From the NCBI GenBank assembly GCA_943327105.2, contig CALPVV020000011.1, positions 1 through 39,734 on the forward strand: a DNA stretch of 39,734 nt, read 5' to 3'. The stretch comes from Nitrosovibrio sp. Nv4. GTDB taxonomy: Bacteria; Bdellovibrionota; UBA1018; CAIMNF01. Below are positions 10,234 through 28,372 of this stretch, piece by piece; positions within the stretch are counted from its first letter, which is position 1; each line of letters begins with the position of its first letter. Position numbers and translations under genes: made by a program. The notes beneath the pieces were generated by a model, which made no database searches, was not told the DNA's origin, and was given only the letters and a program-made list of their open reading frames with translations.

Positions 10234-10282
10234 TTCATAAAGAGAAAGTCCTTTATTATCGATAAGTAACTGCGAGGGCTTG

Positions 10283-13200
10283 ATGGTCTGGAAGACTATA
10301 AAACAGAAAACTTCTGAAGCGTTGTTGTCGCTGGCAATGGTAATGCTAGCGATCGGCTGTACTCAATTAGATACAAAAACTGAAAAACCAGCTCCCCTCT
10401 CCACCACGACATCTCTTAACAACTTCAATAATAGCAGCACACCATTGAGTGATATCACCATCACCGCACCCATAACCAATCCTTACACGGCGAACTCAAC
10501 TTCAATCACCATTAGTGGGACTTGCACCGAAAATGCAACGGTATACCTATCTGGCGGAAAACACTTAAATCGCTTTTGCCTTAACCAACAATTTTCATTT
10601 TCTGTCACCCCAAGCAGTAGCGGTACCATCGATTTTTTCATCAAACAAACTTCAAACACGGGACGATCTTCAAACTCAATCAAATTTACGTGGATCAGGG
10701 ATTCAAGCATTCCAACCACTCCGGTCATCACCTCACCAACTGAACCTTACCATTCAAATTTAACCTCAATCACGATCGAGGGTACCTGCACCAGTGGCAA
10801 CATCGTCACCATGAGTGGCGCGCAGTCAAGCTCGACATCTTGTTCGAATGACAACAAGTTTTCTTTTGACAGCACTCAAAGTACTGACAGCGCCCATCTC
10901 TATTCTTTTGTTCAAAAAAATGCGAATAATACGCCATCTGCTTCAGTCGACTTTACCTGGAATCGCGACACAGTAGCGCCACTAGCGCCAACCATCGTAC
11001 AACCCACTACCAACCCTTACTCATCAATTGAAACCACGGTAGCGATCAGTGGCGGTTGTGAAAACATGGCGACTGTAAAACTGAGTGGTGCTGAAAACTC
11101 ATCCGTAACTTGCACTGACAACAGCTACAGTTTCACCGTCAGTAAATCGGTTGATGGAACTTATATTTACAGTCTTGATCAAACAGACTTAGCGGGAAAC
11201 ACCTCTGTTGCAACTTCATTTACGTGGAATCGGGACAATACTCCTCCGTCTCAGTTGACGATCACAAACCACACCTCTCCGTTCATCAGCAACACTTCAA
11301 CGCTATTGTTGATTGGAACCTGCGAAAATGGATCGACAGTCAATATCGGCGGAGATGTAACAACATCAACTCTTTGCATCAGCGATCAATTTTCAGTTAC
11401 CATTCCAAAGTCTACTGACGGAACCTATCAGTTTACACTGAATCAAACAGACCCTGCCGGCACAACATCAACCAGCATCAATTTTGTGTGGACCCGTGAT
11501 ACCACCGCTCCTATCGCAATCGTGATCACCAATCCAGCAACATCACCCTTTACTTCTTCAGATGGATCCCTTTCCGTTTCTGGAACCTGCGAAACCGATG
11601 CGGTGGTGAATCTGGCCGGCGATTCAACCGATACAAAAACCTGTGTCGGCGAGACATTCAGCTTTTCCATCAACAAGTCAACTGATGGAACCTATAACTT
11701 CAGCTTTAATCAAAGTGATGCCGCTCTAAATACGTCATCACCAACCACACTTACTTGGATTAAAACATCAGCCTCACCACCTACCCCCGTGATTATTTCA
11801 CCAACTCCAAACCCTTATCATTCTAGTGAATCAAATTTGACGATCACAGGAAGTTGTATCGATGGAAATACGGTAGAAATGTCCGGTGATGACTCAGGCA
11901 CACAGACTTGCATGTCGGGCGGCTTCAGTTTCACGGTATCGAAATCAAATGATGCTACTTACAGTTTTAATTTTCGCCAAACCAATTCCACAAACGACTC
12001 TTCTGGTGCCGCAACTTTTACATGGATCAGAGACACGACTGCACCAAGTTCTCCGACGATCACCATTCCGAGCACAAGTCCCTATCATACCAATAGCGAC
12101 TCAATTGTGATTTCGGGTTCCTGTGAAGCTGGCAGTGCCGTCAATCTTTCCGGTGATGTGGATTTGGATAGCACCACTTGCAGCAATGCAAACAGTTATT
12201 CATTCACCATCAACAAGATCACCGATGGAAGTTACCAATTCATCATTGATCAGAAGGATCTTTCCGGAAACACCTCACCAAATACGAGCAAAATCTGGAT
12301 CAGGGACACTGTTGCTCCGATTGCAGTTACCATTACCAACCCTGCTAACAATTCATATCTCTCTTCTGATTCAACACTAATGGTCTCAGGCACCTGTGAA
12401 GCTTTATCAGGAAACATCAGCCTTAGCGGAGATGCAACCGGTACCACTCCCTGCAATTCTTTTGGAAACTTTACATTCAGCATCAATAAGAACGTAGATG
12501 GAACATACAATTTTTCTTTCATTCAAACTGATCTTGCTGGAAATCACTCGAATGCTACCATGTTGACCTGGACAAGAAGCACTACAATGCCGATTACTCC
12601 CGTCATTACCTCACCGAATCCAAATCCGTTGGTTTCAAACTCTTCACAAATCACGATTACGGCATCGTGTGATACCACTCAATCTCCATTACCTTCGCTT
12701 GTCGCACTGGATGGTGACATCAGTGCTTCAGAAGTTGTGACTCCTTCGGGAGCACTCACGCAAGACTGTAGTTCAAGTCCGGTCAGCTTCGTCATTCAAA
12801 AAAACACCGACTCGACCTTTCATTTCAGTATTAATCAAACGAACCAAAACAATTCATTATCATCTGCTGATGCCATGATTACTTGGACCCGAGACACGGT
12901 TGCACCTGCGGCCCCGACTATCACCAGCCCATCAGCTTCACCTTTTACGGCTCCTGGAAACCTCATCATCGAAGGCGGCTGCGAAGCAAATTCAACCGTC
13001 ACGCTCTCAGGTGATGATGCCGCAACAACGACTTGCTCTACAGGAAACACTTATTCATTTACCGTAGCCAAGTCAGATGATGGCTCCTATTCATTCGGAA
13101 TCACTCAAACTGACGCGGCATCAAACACTTCACCCTCAATCAGCCTTACCTGGAACAGACTATCGGGATCAATTGCAGCACCACTGATCACCAGTCCCTC

Positions 13201-14380
13201 ATTATCGACCACTACTAACAATGCTTCAACATTGATCATCACCGGAACCTGTAATAATGGCTACACGGTAACTCTTACAGGTGATGCGGCATCGACTACA
13301 ACTTGTTCAAACGATGCTTTTCAATTCACAATAAACAAAAGCATTGATGCAACTTACAATTTCAATGTCAAACAATCGATTTATGGAAATGACTCACCAG
13401 ACTCAACCAGAACTTGGGTGAGAGACACATTAGCACCGACCACAACCATTACCTCAACACCGTTGACTACCAATTACTTTTTAACGGCAACTTTTGAGTT
13501 TTCTTCAAATGAAGCCGGTTCAAGCTTTCTTTGCAAACTCGATACAGACTCGACTTTTTCGAGTTGTACTTCTGCTAAAACATTTTCAGTAGTAACCAAT
13601 GGCAGCAGGACATTCACAGTCAAGGCAACCGACCCTGCGGGAAATGTCGGAGCAGAAAAAACACACATTTGGACACAAAACGGCTATAAAACAATCGCTC
13701 TATACCACTTCAATAATGGAACCCTAAGCGCCGACAGTGGGCCTTACGGCAACACGTTGAGCTTATTAACCAATACTCCATCAGTAGACTCGGCGTGCGT
13801 GCTTCCCGCTGCTTCACCGACTTGTGCTAAGTTTTCTTCCAGCAGATCTTTCCAGGCTACCAGCAATACTTCTCTGAATCTAGGTAAGGATCAAATGACC
13901 ATTGAGGGAAGAATTAAATTAACTTCCTTACTTACCAACGTTGGTGATTACTTTACCTTGCTATCAAAAAGTGGTGCTTCAGGAAGTTATGGCTGGGAAC
14001 TCAGACTTAAAAAAGTCAGCGCGCCTTCGGCAGGAACCGTACTCGAATTTGTGGCAAGTCTAAACGGTACTGATATTAATACCGTCACTTCAAGTGTAAT
14101 GACCCTCAATACGACAGCCTTCTATTATTTTGCTTCTACTTGGAATTCGGGTACCGTAAAACTTTATTTTGGCAGCAGTCCTATTGAAGTAGGAAGCGGA
14201 AATATCGGTACCGCCGGGTCGGCAACAATTGCAACCAGTACGGCTAATCTCAAAATTGGTGCAAACCAAACATCAGGCTCATCTCCTTCTTACAGGTTAA
14301 TGGCATCTCTTGATGAAGTCAGAATCTCGCAAACGGTGAGAACTATTACCACCAACACAACTGAATTCAATTCAGATTGA
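10283..14380 (+). CDS. giant surface lipoprotein: 11 Ig-like repeats plus LamG-like domain (copy A)
   Basis: The product of about 1365 residues starts with a lipoprotein signal ending MLAIGC, so it is probably acylated at that Cys. A Ser/Thr/Asn linker follows, then 11 Ig-like repeats of about 90 residues. Each opens with a P-x-I-T-S-P-type strand, has I-x-G-x-C near position 25, a second Cys about 20 residues later, F-x-x-x-K-S-x-D-G-x-Y-x-F-x-x-x-Q-T-D, and ends W-x-R-D-T-x-A-P. The paired Cys suggest one disulfide per repeat. A twelfth, different module carries F-x-C-x-L-D and A-T-D-P-A-G-N-V. The last 230 residues resemble a LamG/concanavalin-type lectin domain (ALYHFNN, MTIEGRIKL, GWELRLKK, DEVRIS). 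Likely a stalk-and-tip adhesin. ATG 10283 follows GAGGG; a TTG at 10280 is possible. Confidence 0.85.
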   Translation: MVWKTIKQKTSEALLSLAMVMLAIGCTQLDTKTEKPAPLSTTTSLNNFNNSSTPLSDITITAPITNPYTANSTSITISGTCTENATVYLSGGKHLNRFCLNQQFSFSVTPSSSGTIDFFIKQTSNTGRSSNSIKFTWIRDSSIPTTPVITSPTEPYHSNLTSITIEGTCTSGNIVTMSGAQSSSTSCSNDNKFSFDSTQSTDSAHLYSFVQKNANNTPSASVDFTWNRDTVAPLAPTIVQPTTNPYSSIETTVAISGGCENMATVKLSGAENSSVTCTDNSYSFTVSKSVDGTYIYSLDQTDLAGNTSVATSFTWNRDNTPPSQLTITNHTSPFISNTSTLLLIGTCENGSTVNIGGDVTTSTLCISDQFSVTIPKSTDGTYQFTLNQTDPAGTTSTSINFVWTRDTTAPIAIVITNPATSPFTSSDGSLSVSGTCETDAVVNLAGDSTDTKTCVGETFSFSINKSTDGTYNFSFNQSDAALNTSSPTTLTWIKTSASPPTPVIISPTPNPYHSSESNLTITGSCIDGNTVEMSGDDSGTQTCMSGGFSFTVSKSNDATYSFNFRQTNSTNDSSGAATFTWIRDTTAPSSPTITIPSTSPYHTNSDSIVISGSCEAGSAVNLSGDVDLDSTTCSNANSYSFTINKITDGSYQFIIDQKDLSGNTSPNTSKIWIRDTVAPIAVTITNPANNSYLSSDSTLMVSGTCEALSGNISLSGDATGTTPCNSFGNFTFSINKNVDGTYNFSFIQTDLAGNHSNATMLTWTRSTTMPITPVITSPNPNPLVSNSSQITITASCDTTQSPLPSLVALDGDISASEVVTPSGALTQDCSSSPVSFVIQKNTDSTFHFSINQTNQNNSLSSADAMITWTRDTVAPAAPTITSPSASPFTAPGNLIIEGGCEANSTVTLSGDDAATTTCSTGNTYSFTVAKSDDGSYSFGITQTDAASNTSPSISLTWNRLSGSIAAPLITSPSLSTTTNNASTLIITGTCNNGYTVTLTGDAASTTTCSNDAFQFTINKSIDATYNFNVKQSIYGNDSPDSTRTWVRDTLAPTTTITSTPLTTNYFLTATFEFSSNEAGSSFLCKLDTDSTFSSCTSAKTFSVVTNGSRTFTVKATDPAGNVGAEKTHIWTQNGYKTIALYHFNNGTLSADSGPYGNTLSLLTNTPSVDSACVLPAASPTCAKFSSSRSFQATSNTSLNLGKDQMTIEGRIKLTSLLTNVGDYFTLLSKSGASGSYGWELRLKKVSAPSAGTVLEFVASLNGTDINTVTSSVMTLNTTAFYYFASTWNSGTVKLYFGSSPIEVGSGNIGTAGSATIATSTANLKIGANQTSGSSPSYRLMASLDEVRISQTVRTITTNTTEFNSD
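10454..13438 (+). repeat. 11 tandem Ig-like coding repeats (about 90 residues each), copy A
   Basis: This is the repeat block within the lipoprotein gene at 10283. Units are diverged at the DNA level, so they are old protein repeats rather than a fresh tandem amplification. The ninth unit carries an extra segment, DISASEVVTPSGALTQDC. Confidence 0.85.
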
Positions 14381-14486: not shown

Positions 14487-17400
14487 GTGATCAATAAGGT
14501 GTTTTTCAAAAAAATATTCCAAAATAGCGAAGCATCATGGATGAGATTGCTTCTCATCTCATCTCTTATTTTCTTTTCTGGTTGCTCCAAGAAAGGAAGT
14601 TCTAGCAAATCAAGCGCAGGAAACAATTCAACCGTAACTTCCTTAAGTAAACTTGCACCGGTTTCACTTTCAGTGAATAGTCCGTACACTTCTAATGCTT
14701 CTTCATTTACCCTTAGCGGAACCTGTGCTGACACCGCAACAGTCTATATCAGTGGCTCTGAAACAAACTCAAATCTTTGTGCACAGAATGCTTTTGCTTT
14801 CAATTTAACTCCTCAAGGTAGCGGCACCAATACTTATTATCTGGTACAAAAGGCAAATGGTGCTCTTGATTCATCAACCGTTCGATTTGACTGGGTAATC
14901 AATACTAACCTACCAGATAACGTTGAAATCACTTCACCCACTGTCCCTGTAACTTTTTCAAATCAAAATTCCATACAGATTGATGGTACTTGCACCACCG
15001 GCTACACCGTAACAGTAGGTGGTGACATCAGCGCGAATGATGTTTACTCCCCTACCAATTCACTGACCCAAACCTGCAATAACTCGACATTCAGTTACAC
15101 TATTAATAAATCAAGTGACCAACTTTACCAATTTTCGTTCACTCAAACCGATCCAACCACAATGAATACTTCTGGTGCGGTTACGGTCGGATGGGAAAGA
15201 GACACAATTGCTCCAACCAGCCTCACTGTAGACACTCCTTCTAGTGGATTCATAAGGACAAAAAACAACAATCAAAGCATTTCTGGCCTTTGCGAAAATC
15301 AATCGACGGTGAAACTCACTGGGACACAAACATTTTCAACTTCTTGCACAAACGGTGCATATTCTTTCAATGTAGAAGAAACCAGTGATGGAAATTATCA
15401 TTATGATGTGATTCAAACCGATCGTGCGGGCAATGACTCTTCACCACCACTCGGCATCGATTGGGTACGAGACACAATCCTTTCCCAGTCACTGAGCATC
15501 ACCAACCACAATACATCAAATTGCAATTCCACATCCTGTATCAATAATACATCCAATTTAACCTTAATCGGTGGTTGCGAGGCTGGGGCAACAGTTAATA
15601 TCAGTGGTCCAAACAGCTATTCTGACCATACCATTTGCGGTAATTCAAATTCCTATACTCTAAACATATCTAAAACGGGTGATGGTACCTACAATTACAC
15701 CCTCTATCAAACTGATACTGCACTCAACACATCCAGCAATCTTAGTTACACATGGACGATCGATACCACGGTACTTGCACCAGAAGTCTTGAACTATTCG
15801 GGAAACTCTGTCACCTCTTCCGACGCTGACATTACTTTGTCTGTGAGCTGCGAAACGAATGCTACGGTCAACATGTCGGTGAACGGCAATACCGAACAAA
15901 AAAACTGCACCGCATCTCCTGTATCGTTCAACTATACCCCAAGTTCTGGTGGTAGCGCCATTTATGCATTTACATTGAGTCAGACCGACCTAGCGGGTAA
16001 TACTTCTAGCGATACTTCTTTCAGTTGGAACAAAACGGTAGGAATACCATCAACACCAGTTCTCACCTCTGCCAATCCGTTTTTTACAAATGCCGGCACC
16101 CCCGACAAAAACAACATCACCATTACCGGAAGCTGTACAAACGGCAATTCTGTTATCATCAGCAGAAATGGAACCCCAGTCACTTCGTCAACCTGTTCTG
16201 GAATTAGTTTTAGCAGCATTGTTTCTCAATCTACCGATGGTATTTATCACTATTCAGTAAAACAGCAAAATGCCAGCTTGGTTGATTCGGCTTCGGTGAG
16301 TGTCACTTGGAATCGGAAAACAACAATCCCGGCTGCTCCAACCATTACCTCCATCAATCATCCACATCACTATTCAAATTCAAATACCATTTCAATCGGT
16401 GGTGCTTGTGAGAATGACTCAACCGTTTCAATCAGTGGAGATACCGATACCGATTCAACAACTTGTGCTAATACCTCTTACTCATTCACGGTCACCAAGA
16501 CCGATGATGCGAACTACACTTTTTACATCGAGCAAACCGACGCTGCAGGAAATAATTCGTTAAAAACAGAACAAATTTGGACGAGAGATACGATTACCCC
16601 TGCTGAGGTCACTCTTTACAACCCAATCACTAATCCTTACCGTTCATACAGTAGCAATGTTGACGTCACCGCAACTTGTACGCCAAATGAAACGAATGTA
16701 TTCATTACAGGCAACGGCGCTGACAGCAATCTCCCTTGTCCGGCTACAGGGAAAGTGATTTTCACTGTCACTAAGTCAGCTGACGGAACATACAATTATA
16801 CCATTTATCAAAAAGACTTTGCTGGAAATACCACCTCTGGAATTTTGTTTACATGGCAACGCGATAGCAGTCTGACTCCAACTCCGATGTTTCAACCGAC
16901 TGTTTCTACCCCGACAAACAATAATCCGTATTTATCAAATACCTCATCAATGGATTTATATGTTACATGCGATGCAACCATTTCGCCGACCAAAGCTATT
17001 GTAAACATCAGCGGTGACATTACTTCAAGCGAAGTTACCAGCCCTGCAAACTCACTTTCGCAGTCATGCACCAGTAGCCCTGTAAGATTCACCATTCAAA
17101 AAAGTTCTGATGGGCTCTTTAAATTCGACTTGAATCAATTCAATCCAAATAACAATGTTTATTCAGCGAATACACGCGTGGAATGGGATCGAAAAACAAC
17201 TTTACCTGCTGCTCCAGCAATCACCACTCCTGTTCTCAATACCAGCACTTCTCCAAGCTCATTCATTTCTTCTGGTAATTTGACCATCATTGGAACATGC
17301 GAAGCCGATTCAACAGTGACGATCAGCAATGCTCATACGGATTCAATGGTATGTGATTCGAATAATTCTTTTCAATTCGAAGTCATCAAGTCTGTTGATG

Positions 17401-18785
17401 CCGACTATTTGTTTGACATCAAGCAAACTGATCTTCACTCGAATGTTTCTCCGATCGCTTCATTCAAGTGGACTCGTTTTATTGGTACCGTCAACACTCC
17501 AGTAGTATTGAGTCCCAACCCGACCTCAATCACTAACGGAGCAAACAGCTTGACCATTTTCGGTAGCTGTACATCCAATCAAACCATTTCAATTGGCGGT
17601 GATATCAGTGCATCTGATGTAAGCAACCCTTCAAACAGCCTGTCACAAACTTGTACCAACAATCAGTTTCTATACATGATTTCAAAAACAGTAGACGGTG
17701 TTTACAATTTCAACCTTACCCAGAGCTATCTTGGTGTAACCTCAACAGCCACTACGGTAACCTGGACAAGAAATACAAGGCCAGTTACTCAAATATTAAG
17801 TGGCCCCACTTCACCGAACATCGGCTCAACTGCGAGCTTCGTATTCAATTCAACCACGAGCGGGGTTACCTTTCAATGCAGGCTTGATACAACTGCAACC
17901 TGGAGCGCTTGCACGTCGGGAACTGCAATTCAAAGTTCAACCATTTCGAATGGAGCAAGAACTTATTATGTAAGAGCGATCGATGCGTCTTCAAATGCTG
18001 GTGACCCAGTCAGTTACTCATGGACACAAGCTTTTTATAACACCATGGCGCTTTATCATCTGAATACATCAGCAACCAATACCAGCTTGCACTTAACTGA
18101 TAGCAGTAACTATGCAAGCCTGTTCAGCAACACTTTAGTTCCGGGAACAGCAACTCTTGCAACTAACGACACAACCGGTGTTCAACTCACAATTCCGCCT
18201 GGTACCACCACTTCAAAATCAAGTCGATTGTTTGGAACCAGCAAATATTACACAGTCGCAAACAACAACGTTCTGAACCTCGGCCTAGACAAACTTACGC
18301 TTGAGTTAAGAGTAAAATGGAGCACTTACCCGGCCACCGGAAACTACTGGGTTCTACTTTCAAAAACTAATGGTTCAAGTGGATGGGAACTCAGACTACG
18401 TCGTTTAAATACGGCCGCATATTACTTTGATTTTGTTGTTTACAGAAGCGGGACAACACCAACCATTGTGAGTTCAAGCAGCTTGGGAGATATCACTGCG
18501 GCAGGAAAGATCAATACTTGGCACTATCTAGCGGTTACCTATAACCTTGGTACAGTAAACTTCTCATATGCCGAAACTACAACAATGGGTAGCTTCGGAA
18601 GCGGGATCATCGGAACCGCGGGCTCAACCACCATTCCAGCTGGAACCGGGCCATTCCGAATCGGTGCTAACAGCACACCAGGAGTCGGAAATTCCTTATG
18701 GTTCCCAGGATCAATCGATGAAGTTAGAATTTCAAGAATCATTCGAACTCCGGCTTACACTACTTCAGAATACACAGCCGACTGA
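14487..18785 (+). CDS. giant surface lipoprotein: 11 Ig-like repeats plus LamG-like domain (copy B)
   Basis: This 1432-residue paralogue of the preceding gene has the same plan: lipobox LIFFSGC, low-complexity linker (KKGSSSKSS), 11 Cys-paired Ig-like repeats of about 95 residues, one different module (F-x-C-R-L-D, then RTYYVRAIDASSNAG), and a C-terminal LamG-like domain (MALYHLN, LTLELRVKW, GWELRLRR, SIDEVRISR). Identity is modest, so the duplication is old and the two may bind different ligands. The GTG at 14487 follows GGAAG; an internal ATG at 14541 would also give a perfect lipoprotein signal (MRLLLISSLIFFSGC). It is convergent with clpA, two bases apart. Likely an outer-membrane-anchored adhesin or carbohydrate-binding surface fibre; direct ligand evidence is absent. 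Confidence 0.85.
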   Translation: MINKVFFKKIFQNSEASWMRLLLISSLIFFSGCSKKGSSSKSSAGNNSTVTSLSKLAPVSLSVNSPYTSNASSFTLSGTCADTATVYISGSETNSNLCAQNAFAFNLTPQGSGTNTYYLVQKANGALDSSTVRFDWVINTNLPDNVEITSPTVPVTFSNQNSIQIDGTCTTGYTVTVGGDISANDVYSPTNSLTQTCNNSTFSYTINKSSDQLYQFSFTQTDPTTMNTSGAVTVGWERDTIAPTSLTVDTPSSGFIRTKNNNQSISGLCENQSTVKLTGTQTFSTSCTNGAYSFNVEETSDGNYHYDVIQTDRAGNDSSPPLGIDWVRDTILSQSLSITNHNTSNCNSTSCINNTSNLTLIGGCEAGATVNISGPNSYSDHTICGNSNSYTLNISKTGDGTYNYTLYQTDTALNTSSNLSYTWTIDTTVLAPEVLNYSGNSVTSSDADITLSVSCETNATVNMSVNGNTEQKNCTASPVSFNYTPSSGGSAIYAFTLSQTDLAGNTSSDTSFSWNKTVGIPSTPVLTSANPFFTNAGTPDKNNITITGSCTNGNSVIISRNGTPVTSSTCSGISFSSIVSQSTDGIYHYSVKQQNASLVDSASVSVTWNRKTTIPAAPTITSINHPHHYSNSNTISIGGACENDSTVSISGDTDTDSTTCANTSYSFTVTKTDDANYTFYIEQTDAAGNNSLKTEQIWTRDTITPAEVTLYNPITNPYRSYSSNVDVTATCTPNETNVFITGNGADSNLPCPATGKVIFTVTKSADGTYNYTIYQKDFAGNTTSGILFTWQRDSSLTPTPMFQPTVSTPTNNNPYLSNTSSMDLYVTCDATISPTKAIVNISGDITSSEVTSPANSLSQSCTSSPVRFTIQKSSDGLFKFDLNQFNPNNNVYSANTRVEWDRKTTLPAAPAITTPVLNTSTSPSSFISSGNLTIIGTCEADSTVTISNAHTDSMVCDSNNSFQFEVIKSVDADYLFDIKQTDLHSNVSPIASFKWTRFIGTVNTPVVLSPNPTSITNGANSLTIFGSCTSNQTISIGGDISASDVSNPSNSLSQTCTNNQFLYMISKTVDGVYNFNLTQSYLGVTSTATTVTWTRNTRPVTQILSGPTSPNIGSTASFVFNSTTSGVTFQCRLDTTATWSACTSGTAIQSSTISNGARTYYVRAIDASSNAGDPVSYSWTQAFYNTMALYHLNTSATNTSLHLTDSSNYASLFSNTLVPGTATLATNDTTGVQLTIPPGTTTSKSSRLFGTSKYYTVANNNVLNLGLDKLTLELRVKWSTYPATGNYWVLLSKTNGSSGWELRLRRLNTAAYYFDFVVYRSGTTPTIVSSSSLGDITAAGKINTWHYLAVTYNLGTVNFSYAETTTMGSFGSGIIGTAGSTTIPAGTGPFRIGANSTPGVGNSLWFPGSIDEVRISRIIRTPAYTTSEYTAD
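14652..17783 (+). repeat. 11 tandem Ig-like coding repeats (about 95 residues each), copy B
   Basis: This is the repeat block within the lipoprotein gene at 14487. Units 2, 9 and 11 carry the same extra segment of about 12 residues before the second Cys (pattern G-D-I-[ST]-x-[SN]-[DE]-V-x-x-P-x-N-S-L-[ST]-Q-[ST]-C) that is seen in unit 9 of copy A. Confidence 0.85.
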
Positions 18786-24634: not shown

Positions 24635-26467
24635 TCAAGGACCAAAATTATTTTTTAATTTTTGGTATTCATCCTTAACGCTTGAGTCAAAAGCATCGTA
24701 ATGAGAACCACCATTGGCAGAAATTAGTGGCACACGCAACAAACGATTATTATTGTATCCTACACTACCAAAATAATCACAATTACCACTAACCGGATCA
24801 AAACCTGCGTCTGCGTTACAATCTTTCAGAAGAACAGCCCCCGAATAATTACAAGTCGTAGTCTGTCTAGTGACATCATAAAGACGGCTTTGGAAACTTC
24901 TACCTAAAAACAAAGGTGGACATTCGGTTCTTAATAAAGAAAGCAATACAGCACCATCAGAATCAGGGGCATTTTGTTCACACCTTAAATCAAAAACTTT
25001 GAAATCATTTTTTAGTAAATTACCGAATTTAAGCTGCTTATCAATTGAACGCCCACCGGCTGAATTACAGGAATTACTGTCAACACTTCCAGCGTAATCA
25101 CAAACCAATTTTTTGATAACATGATCATAATCAAACCCTCTCAAAGTAAAACCGAAGTAATTACTAGGACAAGAACCATATAGATATTTATCGGGAGATT
25201 TATCAATGTAATCAAGAAGCTCTGGAATTGGATCAATAACATAACCCATAGTGCAAACAGGATCTGAGACATCGTTCAAACACCAATGAAAACTAATTCC
25301 ACCCCGAGTTTTAAATCTAGCAATCAAAATATCATGATTAAAGTTATAACCACCAAAACTGAAAATATTAGCCACGCCCTTGGCAATAACGATAGTTGCA
25401 TCCACAGTGTAACCAAGAAACTTTGTCTTAAATCCTACCCATGCTTGAGCGTAAGCATCAAGCGATCCTGAAAGGATTTCTGTCGAACCTTGAAGCAAAA
25501 CATCAAAATATTGGGAAACATTTGTACCTGATATCGCAGCAGCGACTTTTGCTTTTAAGAAGTTTAATTTCGCAGCAACCCCAACTTCTACACCAGCAAC
25601 AGCAACGCTCAGTTGAGCTGAAGCCTTCGCAAAAACCCCGGAACTAACTTCGGGGCCGAAAGCAACGGTCAAACGAATTTTATCATTTACATAACCATCT
25701 AAAACCCTACCAACCGAAGACCATGTTTTATTTTGAACAACCGTACTTGCAGATGATGTTGTATATTTAACAACTGCTGCTTTAGAGTCCTTAATTATTT
25801 TACTGCTAAAATCAGACATTGACGTGCTTATTAAATCAGTTGAACCAGAAAAATAGTTAATTTTTTCTGATTTCAATTCAGCATCAAGAGATAATGACTT
25901 GCTAAAATAAAGCCCGCCAATCAAATTCAGCGATAATGGGCCCGTGATTGGAATGTTTTTATTGAATAGAACCTTTGAGATATCTCCAACCTTGATCTTT
26001 GCACCTGCATTATGAATAACTTCATCTTTAATTTTAGTGCCAAATAATCTGACTGTCGTATTCCACTTGATATTAAAAATTTTTGCATCACTTGGAATTG
26101 GTTCCGTACCAATTCTTTTCCAATTGCCCATAGCAAAACCAACATCAAATACCTCCACACTACTTCCAAACATTTTAGCGCGCATTTTTACTGATGAAAT
26201 AGAATTAATCGATGTTTTAGAATACTGGTCAGGTGTAACCTTGATGTTAAAATTTGTATCTGCATTAAAACTTGCACCAAACTTAAACAAGCCGCTGCCA
26301 GCATCTTTTTCAAGTGAAAGAAACCGAAAATTTTTATCTAAAACATACTCTTTTGAAAAGGGCTCTCTTATCTTACTGAATAACGCATTGTTTTCTTGCG
26401 ACAGTGCATTTTCATGCAAAAAAAAGCTCGTCATAAAAAAAGCCAAAAAAACTTTTAAACTTTTCAT
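24635..26467 (-). CDS. large secreted beta-rich protein with duplicated Cys-rich tail, partner of the vitellogenin-like gene
   Basis: This exported protein of about 610 residues has the signal peptide MKSLKVFLAFFMTSFFLHENALS. The ATG at 26467 is preceded by GGGGTGGAG; an in-frame GTG at 26479 touches the upstream stop. Residues 40-420 are long amphipathic strands (SLNLIGGLYFSKSLSLDAEL, VKMRAKMFGSSVEVFDVGF) and apolar segments (AKLNFLKAKVAAAISG), fitting a large beta-sheet or lipid-binding structure. The C-terminal 190 residues hold two aligned 40-residue Cys units, each CP-x(5)-G...YDV...C-[DN]-Y-[AS]-G-[SA]-V...CN...G, plus a partial third (NCDYFGSV). I recognise no named family. It is the second gene of a two-gene unit, and a role with the upstream protein in binding or moving lipid outside the inner membrane is inference. 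Confidence 0.7.
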   Translation of the reverse strand: MKSLKVFLAFFMTSFFLHENALSQENNALFSKIREPFSKEYVLDKNFRFLSLEKDAGSGLFKFGASFNADTNFNIKVTPDQYSKTSINSISSVKMRAKMFGSSVEVFDVGFAMGNWKRIGTEPIPSDAKIFNIKWNTTVRLFGTKIKDEVIHNAGAKIKVGDISKVLFNKNIPITGPLSLNLIGGLYFSKSLSLDAELKSEKINYFSGSTDLISTSMSDFSSKIIKDSKAAVVKYTTSSASTVVQNKTWSSVGRVLDGYVNDKIRLTVAFGPEVSSGVFAKASAQLSVAVAGVEVGVAAKLNFLKAKVAAAISGTNVSQYFDVLLQGSTEILSGSLDAYAQAWVGFKTKFLGYTVDATIVIAKGVANIFSFGGYNFNHDILIARFKTRGGISFHWCLNDVSDPVCTMGYVIDPIPELLDYIDKSPDKYLYGSCPSNYFGFTLRGFDYDHVIKKLVCDYAGSVDSNSCNSAGGRSIDKQLKFGNLLKNDFKVFDLRCEQNAPDSDGAVLLSLLRTECPPLFLGRSFQSRLYDVTRQTTTCNYSGAVLLKDCNADAGFDPVSGNCDYFGSVGYNNNRLLRVPLISANGGSHYDAFDSSVKDEYQKLKNNFGP

Positions 26468-26479
26468 ACTCCACCCCAC

Positions 26480-28372
26480 TCAATACACCTTCAAGAACTC
26501 AATCAGTCTTGCTCGAATTGATAAGTCTTGTTCGCTCAAAAGTTGTTCATCAATCACTTGACGAGCTCCTTTAACGTCAGCATTAGCAAGTAAAATATCG
26601 TAACATTCATTTTTCACGGCACTGCTGGTCTCACTTTTAAAACAGTTTTTTAAAACACTGAAAACACCATCATTGAAATTATCATTCAAAAGACTATGAT
26701 ACGCAGCCGCACGCACAGACTCATCAGGATCTTTATTGCCAATCGACATCACTAATTTTTTTATGTTTTGATCCTTTGAATTTCTAGTTGCATCAATTGC
26801 TGCAACCTTTAAATCATTAGATGAAGAATCTATAGCAGTCTTAATCTCTGAAACAAAAGATTCCGGGTGTGCATTACCGATAATACCAAGCACATGAATT
26901 TTATCATCATTAGTTTTGGCGTTTTTCCATTTATCATGGATTTCAGCTTCTAACTGATCATCAGATGAGAGAAAAAGCGTATGACCAAGTGAATAAGCAG
27001 CCATTTTGCTCAAAACAACGTCTTCTGAATTTTCCGATAATGATTTTAAAAACTTTTTAGAATCATTAGTAATTTGATTACTCGAAATTGAAAAAGCGGT
27101 AACAATACTTTCCTTTTCAATGTTATTTGTTTTAGATTGCTTGAATATTTCAATTAATCCTTTTTGAGCCTCTGAATTACCCAGTGCTCCTAATGCACCA
27201 ATCAGCATCGAACGCTGCCTTACGCCTGATTGTAGCCGCTGAGCCTCGGCAATATATTCAGTACTCAGAAAATGGTTGCTAAGAAGAAGCTCAACCAATT
27301 GTCCGAAAATTTGATTTGAAGAATCACTATGACCCTCATCTGACTTCACTTGTCCTAAAAGGCTTTTGGCCTCAGACCAATGGCTTTCTTTTTTACCCAA
27401 TAAATCAGCATTTTTTGATTGTTCTCTGATTTTTTTGGTATCAATTGTTCTATTGAAACCGGCGAGAACAGACGCATCAAACTTACTCGTGCCACCATTT
27501 GACCATTTAGACTCAGCTAAAACCTCTATTTCGGCGATCTTTTTTTGATCATGCTCTATACTTACCAATCCGCGTGAATAATGATTTACCGGAAGACTCC
27601 TTTCAAGACTCCATGTCATATTATGGTCTGAAACTTTTTCCACCCCAAGAAGTGTGTTATCAATCGTTTTATCAAACAGTCCTTTTGCCTCGATTTGAAT
27701 TTGATTCTTTATTTTTCCTGTTTTAAAAAAAAATTCAGTCGATAACTGATTTCCTTCCTCATCTTCAACAACTTCAACAATATTATTCCTTGCTGTTTGC
27801 GGAATTACTAAAAATACAGATCTCAATATATCAGCATAATTTATCGATACTTCATCTGAAGGTTTTTTATTCATTGCCGAAATCCGATTGACTTTACCGT
27901 TAAATTGAATCTCAACAAGCAGTGAGTTTTCTAAATCATCTGAGTTCGCTACATTTTTTCTTTTCATCTTCTTCAAAGAATTCTCACTGATCAACTCTGA
28001 CTTGATGTTCGCCAAGGTGAATTTTGATAAAAAAATCCATGATTGATCTGTTTTTTTCAACGGGTGCATCTCAATCTTACCCACCAGGAGATGCTGGGGA
28101 ATGGATTTCCCCATCTGACTTCCTTTAATCTCACGTCGAAAGTCTATGACCTCAATTTGTTTTTCGATGAATTTAAAAAACAAATGCTGATTAGCGATTT
28201 GATTTTTACTCTCATCATCTTCGATTCTTAATGAAGCAAGTGAACGGTTTTGATTTTTTAATTCAGATTCAGCTTCGTTTGTTAATGAACTCTCGGGAGT
28301 TATCAATAAAAACACCCCGACAGAAAAAGTGATTATACCCATCAAAATGAGAAAATTCTTTTTGCCTAACAT
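26480..28372 (-). CDS. membrane-anchored HEAT-like protein resembling vitellogenin/MTP N-terminal lipid-transfer domain
   Basis: The 630-residue protein has an N-terminal membrane anchor (FLILMGIITFSVGVFLLI), no lipobox and a large periplasmic part. Residues 60-290 are beta-rich and include LLVEIQFNGKVNRI (151-164), then DILRSVFLVIPQTA, in the order of the vitellogenin N-sheet (f-x-x-x-d-G-k-V, then N-x-K-x-x-I-L-x-x-L-Q). Residues 350-630 are paired helices: SMLIGALGALGNSEAQKGLI, AAYSLGHT, KIHVLGIIGNAHPESF. The L-G-x-x-G-N-x-x-P pattern is characteristic of the helical superhelix of vitellogenin and microsomal triglyceride transfer protein. A generic HEAT-repeat protein is the alternative. 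Its stop is immediately followed by the GTG of the beta-rich partner gene. The ribosome-binding site is G-rich (GTGGGGG). The repeat fold is secure; the lipid-transfer homology is a moderately supported inference. Confidence 0.7.
   Translation of the reverse strand: MLGKKNFLILMGIITFSVGVFLLITPESSLTNEAESELKNQNRSLASLRIEDDESKNQIANQHLFFKFIEKQIEVIDFRREIKGSQMGKSIPQHLLVGKIEMHPLKKTDQSWIFLSKFTLANIKSELISENSLKKMKRKNVANSDDLENSLLVEIQFNGKVNRISAMNKKPSDEVSINYADILRSVFLVIPQTARNNIVEVVEDEEGNQLSTEFFFKTGKIKNQIQIEAKGLFDKTIDNTLLGVEKVSDHNMTWSLERSLPVNHYSRGLVSIEHDQKKIAEIEVLAESKWSNGGTSKFDASVLAGFNRTIDTKKIREQSKNADLLGKKESHWSEAKSLLGQVKSDEGHSDSSNQIFGQLVELLLSNHFLSTEYIAEAQRLQSGVRQRSMLIGALGALGNSEAQKGLIEIFKQSKTNNIEKESIVTAFSISSNQITNDSKKFLKSLSENSEDVVLSKMAAYSLGHTLFLSSDDQLEAEIHDKWKNAKTNDDKIHVLGIIGNAHPESFVSEIKTAIDSSSNDLKVAAIDATRNSKDQNIKKLVMSIGNKDPDESVRAAAYHSLLNDNFNDGVFSVLKNCFKSETSSAVKNECYDILLANADVKGARQVIDEQLLSEQDLSIRARLIEFLKVY

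Follow-up and report, generated by a model that had tools for sequence, protein, structure and literature searches.

Large lipid transfer proteins (LLTPs: vitellogenin, apoB and microsomal triglyceride transfer protein, MTP) have been described chiefly in animals, and how they originated is still an open question. In apoB the N-terminal region continues into a giant chain that binds lipid. MTP acts on a separate secreted protein, apoB, and its domains follow one another as a β-barrel, a helical domain and a lipid-binding C-terminal β-sheet (residues 604–894). The barrel binds the N-terminus of apoB and the helical domain binds both protein disulfide isomerase (PDI) and apoB (PMC3337244). The N-terminal region of apoB is disulfide-rich and has one disulfide pair in common with lipovitellin (PMC1940002).

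Here we describe a gene at 26480–28372 on the reverse strand of a 39,734-nucleotide stretch of DNA from Nitrosovibrio sp. Nv4 (positions 1–39,734 of contig CALPVV020000011.1, assembly GCA_943327105.2; this whole stretch is referred to as the window). We found that its product is very probably a homologue of the LLTP N-module, that is, the N-terminal β-barrel together with the helical domain, and that a functional pairing with the product of the adjacent gene is quite probable. The homology is well supported, and the pairing of the two genes is a firm observation that is new here. Since its chain is complete with the second domain and its β domain lacks cysteine, we call the protein an LLTP N-module homologue rather than an LLTP. 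No report of a bacterial LLTP or Vitellogenin_N protein was among the papers listed in a literature search that covered few subscription journals, and bacterial entries may already be present without comment in Pfam or InterPro.

The 26480–28372 protein and its predicted fold

The open reading frame (ORF) runs from an ATG at 28372 to 26480 and encodes 630 amino acids, exactly where the original prediction had placed it, and all of the motifs quoted there are present: LLVEIQFNGKVNRI in the β region, and GALGALGN, AAYSLGHT and KIHVLGIIGNAHPESF in the helical region. The claim of a membrane anchor also held, as the only strong transmembrane candidate in the protein lies at residues 7–25 with a mean hydropathy of 2.57. 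In the AlphaFold2 model this segment forms a helix at residues 4–24 (28301–28363, −), at a low predicted local distance difference test (pLDDT) value. Lysines just ahead of the helix suggest that the rest of the protein lies on the periplasmic side.

The model, computed from a 19-sequence alignment, had a pLDDT of 82.6 and a predicted template modelling score (pTM) of 0.50. The order of a β-rich N-terminal region and a helical region was borne out in it. Behind the transmembrane helix, residues 72–295 (27488–28159, −) form a β domain of 11 strands, each of at least 6 residues, with helices between them; its blocks are mostly at pLDDT 80–95 and its loops weaker, at 55–73. One helix among the strands occupies residues 173–186 (27815–27856, −) and is followed by a DxxG signature with D204 and G207 (27752–27763, −), defined in the family alignment. 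The helical, HEAT-like domain covers residues 300–629 (26486–27475, −), with 18 helices from residue 312 onwards, and includes KIHVLGIIGNAHPESF at residues 491–506 (26855–26902, −). The chain ends at residue 630, behind a helix, and the C-terminal lipid-binding β-sheets are absent; consistent with this, a Pfam scan found no DUF1943, vWD or other C-terminal LLTP sheet domain. The only cysteines are C577 and C590, so that the β domain lacks those of the disulfide shared by apoB and lipovitellin.

When the whole model was compared with the PDB using Foldseek, ranks 1–10 were all LLTPs. The best match was the large subunit of MTP (PDB 6i7s, 8eoj), with E=1.3e-17 and a TMq of 0.54 over 621 columns, gaps included, for the 630-residue query. 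It was followed by lipovitellin (3.2e-14), the N-terminal region of apoB-100 (PDB 9bd1 and 9e9r; 2.4e-12 and 8.3e-12) and honeybee vitellogenin (1.5e-9), and the MTP and lipovitellin alignments spanned 613–646 columns, gaps included. The best structure from outside the superfamily was deoxyhypusine hydroxylase, at 3.5e-5, and the weakest of the ten LLTP structures was roughly 400-fold better in E-value. The proposed LLTP resemblance was thus supported, and the predicted N-terminal fold was not unlike that of LLTPs. In the model, a β-barrel appears to surround a central helix as in LLTPs, and the helical domain lies directly behind the β domain, colinear with LLTPs; a two-layer horseshoe packing of the helices is implied only by the Foldseek match. 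The placement of the two domains relative to each other is unsettled because the deviations are large (root-mean-square deviation 8–20 Å) and the pTM is modest.

MTP and the bacterial protein have a β and then a helical domain of similar sizes, but the bacterial protein has no C-terminal sheet and is anchored in the membrane. MTP itself forms a complex with PDI. Unlike vitellogenin, the window protein is membrane-anchored and is no yolk protein. Compared with apoB, the bacterial module stands alone, the β-rich chain being the product of a separate gene, giant and cysteine-rich in some loci.

Family conservation and profile evidence

Of 58 close genomes, 15 contain relatives at 22–29% identity; the genome of the window is one of the 15. 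It has a second copy of 655 amino acids (L016:1399-3366(−), G000 contig 125) on a 4.4-kb contig without a recognised partner; in the tree this copy groups with a relative that belongs to a different family within the order. In an alignment of 32 members (A3), G207, G499 and N500 were invariant, and L394, G463, L495, A525 and R530 were at least 90% conserved; the two invariant residues G499 and N500 fall within KIHVLGIIGNAHPESF, which was also aligned in a smaller set of 19 members (A1). The helix of the β domain followed by a glycine (G207 in the window protein) was present in all 32 members, in the form DxxGxY in many. The quoted motifs are not due to chance, since relatives occur in 15 of the 58 near genomes and the residues are conserved across 32 rows. 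The A1 profile matched 64 of 368 genomes, where many rows were short HEAT-only matches that were not counted as family members. A first scan of genome contigs revealed no relative, and a second one yielded five loci, four in Oligoflexia bacterium metagenome-assembled genomes and one in a Proteobacteria bacterium. The tree divided the 32 members into a group with the window protein (8 rows, support 100/100), a short group (15 rows, 93/95) and a divergent group (9 rows, 92/88).

Sequence profiles extended the structural result to the family level. When scanned alone, the helical half of the window protein matched Vitellogenin_N (PF01347) over profile positions 297–583 with 37.9 bits (curated cut-off 24) and E=1.1e-9, better than its match to HEAT_2 (E=1.3e-7), so that the Pfam check did not return generic HEAT families alone. 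When genomes were searched with this Pfam profile, the same protein scored 37.4 bits, and none of 14 control genomes was positive. Among the relatives, L054 (65.6 bits, 75–579), L056 (45.4 bits, 89–527) and L077 (60.3 bits, 54–521) matched both domains of Vitellogenin_N, which is more specific evidence than a score from the helical half, the only half matched by L053 and L055. Across the family, 9 of the 32 members matched Vitellogenin_N at E≤0.01. With the β domains scanned alone, three of 32 matched it (best E=1.7e-5), and no other Pfam family was matched by more than one member; the β domain of L077 reached 24.0 bits, equal to the cut-off, and those of L054 and L056 gave E-values of 0.006 and 0.003.

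Furthermore, a profile built from the 32 bacterial sequences in A3 aligned with lipovitellin (1lsh_A) in one colinear stretch, 90–506 against 28–507, at E=1e-11, and a profile of seven members of the divergent branch did so at E=1.4e-15, over 91–585 of the chain. Lipovitellin thus shows a colinear match to both domains, with PDB 1lsh and 9enr among the related structures. A truncated profile (A12) placed a helix and the pattern E-x-x-x-x-G-x-x-x-x-Y of lipovitellin 91–164 at the same spot as the helix and glycine-containing signature of the family; this alignment (E=0.04) is level with chance rows, non-significant on its own and usable only for locating the match. As a default full-length hmmscan misses it, kinship with Vitellogenin_N is visible only through fragments, family profiles or structure, and databases may under-annotate relatives of this kind.

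Several results weigh against homology and suit an alternative, raised in the original prediction as an unrelated HEAT-repeat protein, in which a generic HEAT-repeat protein has an unrelated β domain and its likeness to vitellogenin is convergent. A default full-length hmmscan of the window protein returned HEAT_2 (PF13646) only, in the helical domain and above its cut-off (30 bits against 27.7); the difference from the fragment result is likely to be explained by the filters of HMMER, and the match names the repeat, not the whole architecture. Other HEAT-type proteins also passed the Vitellogenin_N cut-off (L025, 32.2 bits; L027, 24.9 bits; L037, 34.5 bits summed with its neighbours in frame), and because of these three the helical-half scores are not specific alone. 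The β domain of the window protein matched nothing in Pfam when scanned alone, and a 32-row β-domain profile matched nothing in the PDB. Rows of HEAT proteins or of alphaReps, which are designed and HEAT-like, outscored lipovitellin in the profile searches, 15 of them with A3 and nine with the divergent-branch profile, their best stretches falling in the final repeats; neither profile had a chain of MTP or apoB among the PDB matches listed. The smaller A1 profile reached lipovitellin at E=0.0055 in the helical part only, and a profile ended at window residue 470 (A6) lost the match. The structural result has its own weak points in the pTM and deviations given above and in a Foldseek match without aligned ranges. 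Single-sequence phmmer searches of the PDB were uninformative (alanine racemase, calmodulin and alphaRep rows), and PHROGs and NCBIfam gave nothing useful. Set against this alternative are the ten LLTP structures that ranked above all others, the colinear profile matches that take in part of the β domain, and Vitellogenin_N as the one Pfam family recurring among the β domains. Generic HEAT proteins share HEAT_2 with the helical domain, but their structural match is weaker and the β domain is foreign to them. We therefore rejected the generic HEAT reading as the main explanation and regard it as improbable.

The partner gene and its pairing with the family

The adjacent gene (24635–26467, −) encodes 610 amino acids from an ATG; an alternative GTG start at 26479 would give 614 amino acids and lies directly behind the stop of the 26480–28372 gene. 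Its product, termed the partner, begins with a segment that resembles a signal when judged by eye, and contains 10 cysteines between residues 396 and 563. Comparison with two other loci (L043 and L039) by blastp, and between profiles, defined a conserved core at residues 249–398 (25274–25723, −). This core recurs in much larger proteins near family genes, with open frames of 2,137–3,406 amino acids. One of them (L042:9738-19000(+), 3,087 amino acids in the available sequence) has RCC1 repeats close to its C-terminus (Pfam RCC1-like, E=9e-101), which suggests surface display in this case, as a surface-exposed propeller. Five loci (L040–L044) have a VKOR-like gene at most 4 kb away from the family gene, for example L041:6508-7701; Pfam VKOR was checked in L041 only and matched with E=3e-11. 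The partners in L040–L043 contain 53–84 cysteines in their available parts.

Three profiles describe the partners: the window type (A7), neighbours of 380–670 amino acids (A8) and a short form of about 280 amino acids (A9). Comparison with hhalign connected A8 with A9 (E=2.2e-9, probability 96) and A7 with A8 (E=4.9e-5, probability 68); A7 against A9 was weak (E=0.003, probability 10). One protein of 1,736 amino acids matched both A7 and A9, and several proteins matched A8 and A9. For the short form, neither Pfam nor the PDB gave a significant match. The AlphaFold2 model of the window partner (pLDDT 36) was too poor for a fold or a fold search. The partners constitute one superfamily of β-rich, probably secreted proteins. 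Partner type and gene order track the groups of the tree: the large partner is mostly downstream, the form of about 280 amino acids always upstream and the A8 type mostly upstream.

Pairing was counted in selected loci, which are not a random sample. ORFs were taken from stop to stop; a family gene had to exceed 100 bits, and a partner had to exceed 15 bits with E≤1e-4. The table had 36 rows, corresponding to 35 genes as L013 and L071 are the same, and left out L081 and the gene fragments of G004. A partner was present within 1.3 kb of 32 of the 35 distinct family genes. Twenty-seven of these 32 pairs were on the same strand and at most 160 bp apart or overlapping, and three had another gene between. 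In the subset where the neighbour had not been used in building the partner profiles, a partner was found beside 14 of 17 family genes. The three genes without one were L016 and L104, on contigs shorter than 6 kb, and L044, whose 636-amino-acid neighbour was matched by no partner profile.

The pairing was also examined in reverse. A9 matched 18 of 280 genomes, 16 of them with a match adjoining a family gene, and eight of ten were adjacent after the eight profile-source genomes had been removed. A8 gave matches at nine places, spread over 7 of 290 genomes, and at eight of them a family or HEAT gene adjoins. Five of these nine places were sources of the profile, three of the other four were adjacent, and both places in genome G039 adjoin HEAT-only proteins. 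With A7, 7 of 280 genomes yielded ten distinct ORFs, in a count where the surroundings of G008:C34 were left out. Seven were adjacent, six of them profile sources; outside the profile only one of four (in G211) adjoins a family gene, and two others run into contig ends. This last result and the poor partner model weigh against the overall explanation given below. We nonetheless kept our assessment because the profile ranks and the A7 reverse test weaken single items and not the structural match or the pairing in 14 of 17 genes.

Possible mechanism and wider meaning

The best overall explanation, which we consider rather likely, is an inner-membrane-anchored LLTP N-module homologue paired with a probably secreted β-rich protein. 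The pairing, the membrane anchor and the kinship with the apoB-binding domains of MTP point to a tethered factor that would assemble the partner, a mechanism that we propose tentatively by analogy. The N-terminal helix would tether the protein to the inner membrane; as the partner exits the Sec channel into the periplasm, the β and helical domains would bind its glycine/alanine-rich β core and, in a chaperone role, hold or assemble it, as the corresponding domains of MTP bind apoB. The partner, whose large relatives have many cysteines, would then fold; it may also acquire lipid or travel to the outer surface. Lipid handling by the window protein or by the pair is an attractive but open hypothesis.

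Two other readings accept the kinship and differ on the function. The partner could supply the missing lipid-binding sheets of a split LLTP, so that the two chains would form a lipid cavity serving to move or store lipid in the periplasm or outside. In favour of this, the bacterial chain ends after its second domain and adjoins a β-rich protein, while MTP has a third, sheet domain (PMC3337244), and in some segments of the partner core, with strands taken from the low-confidence model, a strand-type hydrophobic moment appears stronger than the helix-type one. On the other hand, the partners scanned had no significant match to an LLTP sheet domain, the short form had none in the PDB and the window partner model does not allow comparison; moreover, the partners with the largest open frames, one with RCC1 repeats, look more like surface proteins than lipid carriers. 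We consider a split LLTP unlikely. The original prediction had suggested that the protein could carry lipid between the inner and outer membranes by itself, which its fold kinship with lipid transfer proteins and its anchor would suit; because the lipid-holding domain of MTP is absent, and a protein that is anchored and has a partner nearby in 32 of 35 loci is more likely half of a pair, we judge such a stand-alone shuttle to be very improbable. An anchored N-module homologue with a co-encoded partner remains our preferred explanation.

These data name a conserved two-gene envelope system without an assigned function. The two-domain module of LLTPs, present in minimal form in a diverse bacterial family and paired with a separate, probably secreted protein, makes the order in which partner binding and lipid binding arose testable, and a bacterial counterpart of the animal fat-loading machinery is plausible and testable. 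A more far-reaching proposal, which we regard as doubtful, is that Oligoflexia-related bacteria have a split lipoprotein-assembly system, in which an anchored LLTP N-module would lipidate or assemble a co-encoded secreted β-sheet protein, in some loci a giant cysteine-rich chain with a VKOR-like oxidase gene nearby, and which would be a bacterial counterpart, possibly an ancestral form, of the animal MTP–apoB/vitellogenin machinery.

Some further loci were recorded. Two HEAT proteins encoded in genome G039 (L030:1291-2481(+) and L083:1291-2502(−)), each about 400 amino acids long and lacking a β domain, adjoin A8-type partners, and one of them has a lipobox-like start when judged by eye; they are perhaps a reduced form of the system. 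Partner-type ORFs without a family gene in the available stretch were seen in L097 (G155, 476 amino acids, none within 14 kb), L106 (G014, 1,736 amino acids) and L107 (G003, 2,140 amino acids, with a Peptidase_M26_N match below the cut-off), the last two ending at contig ends. Elsewhere in the window, two tandem lipoprotein-like ORFs of 1,366 and 1,432 amino acids (10280–14380 and 14487–18785, +) have Ig-type repeats and a similar C-terminal domain by eye.
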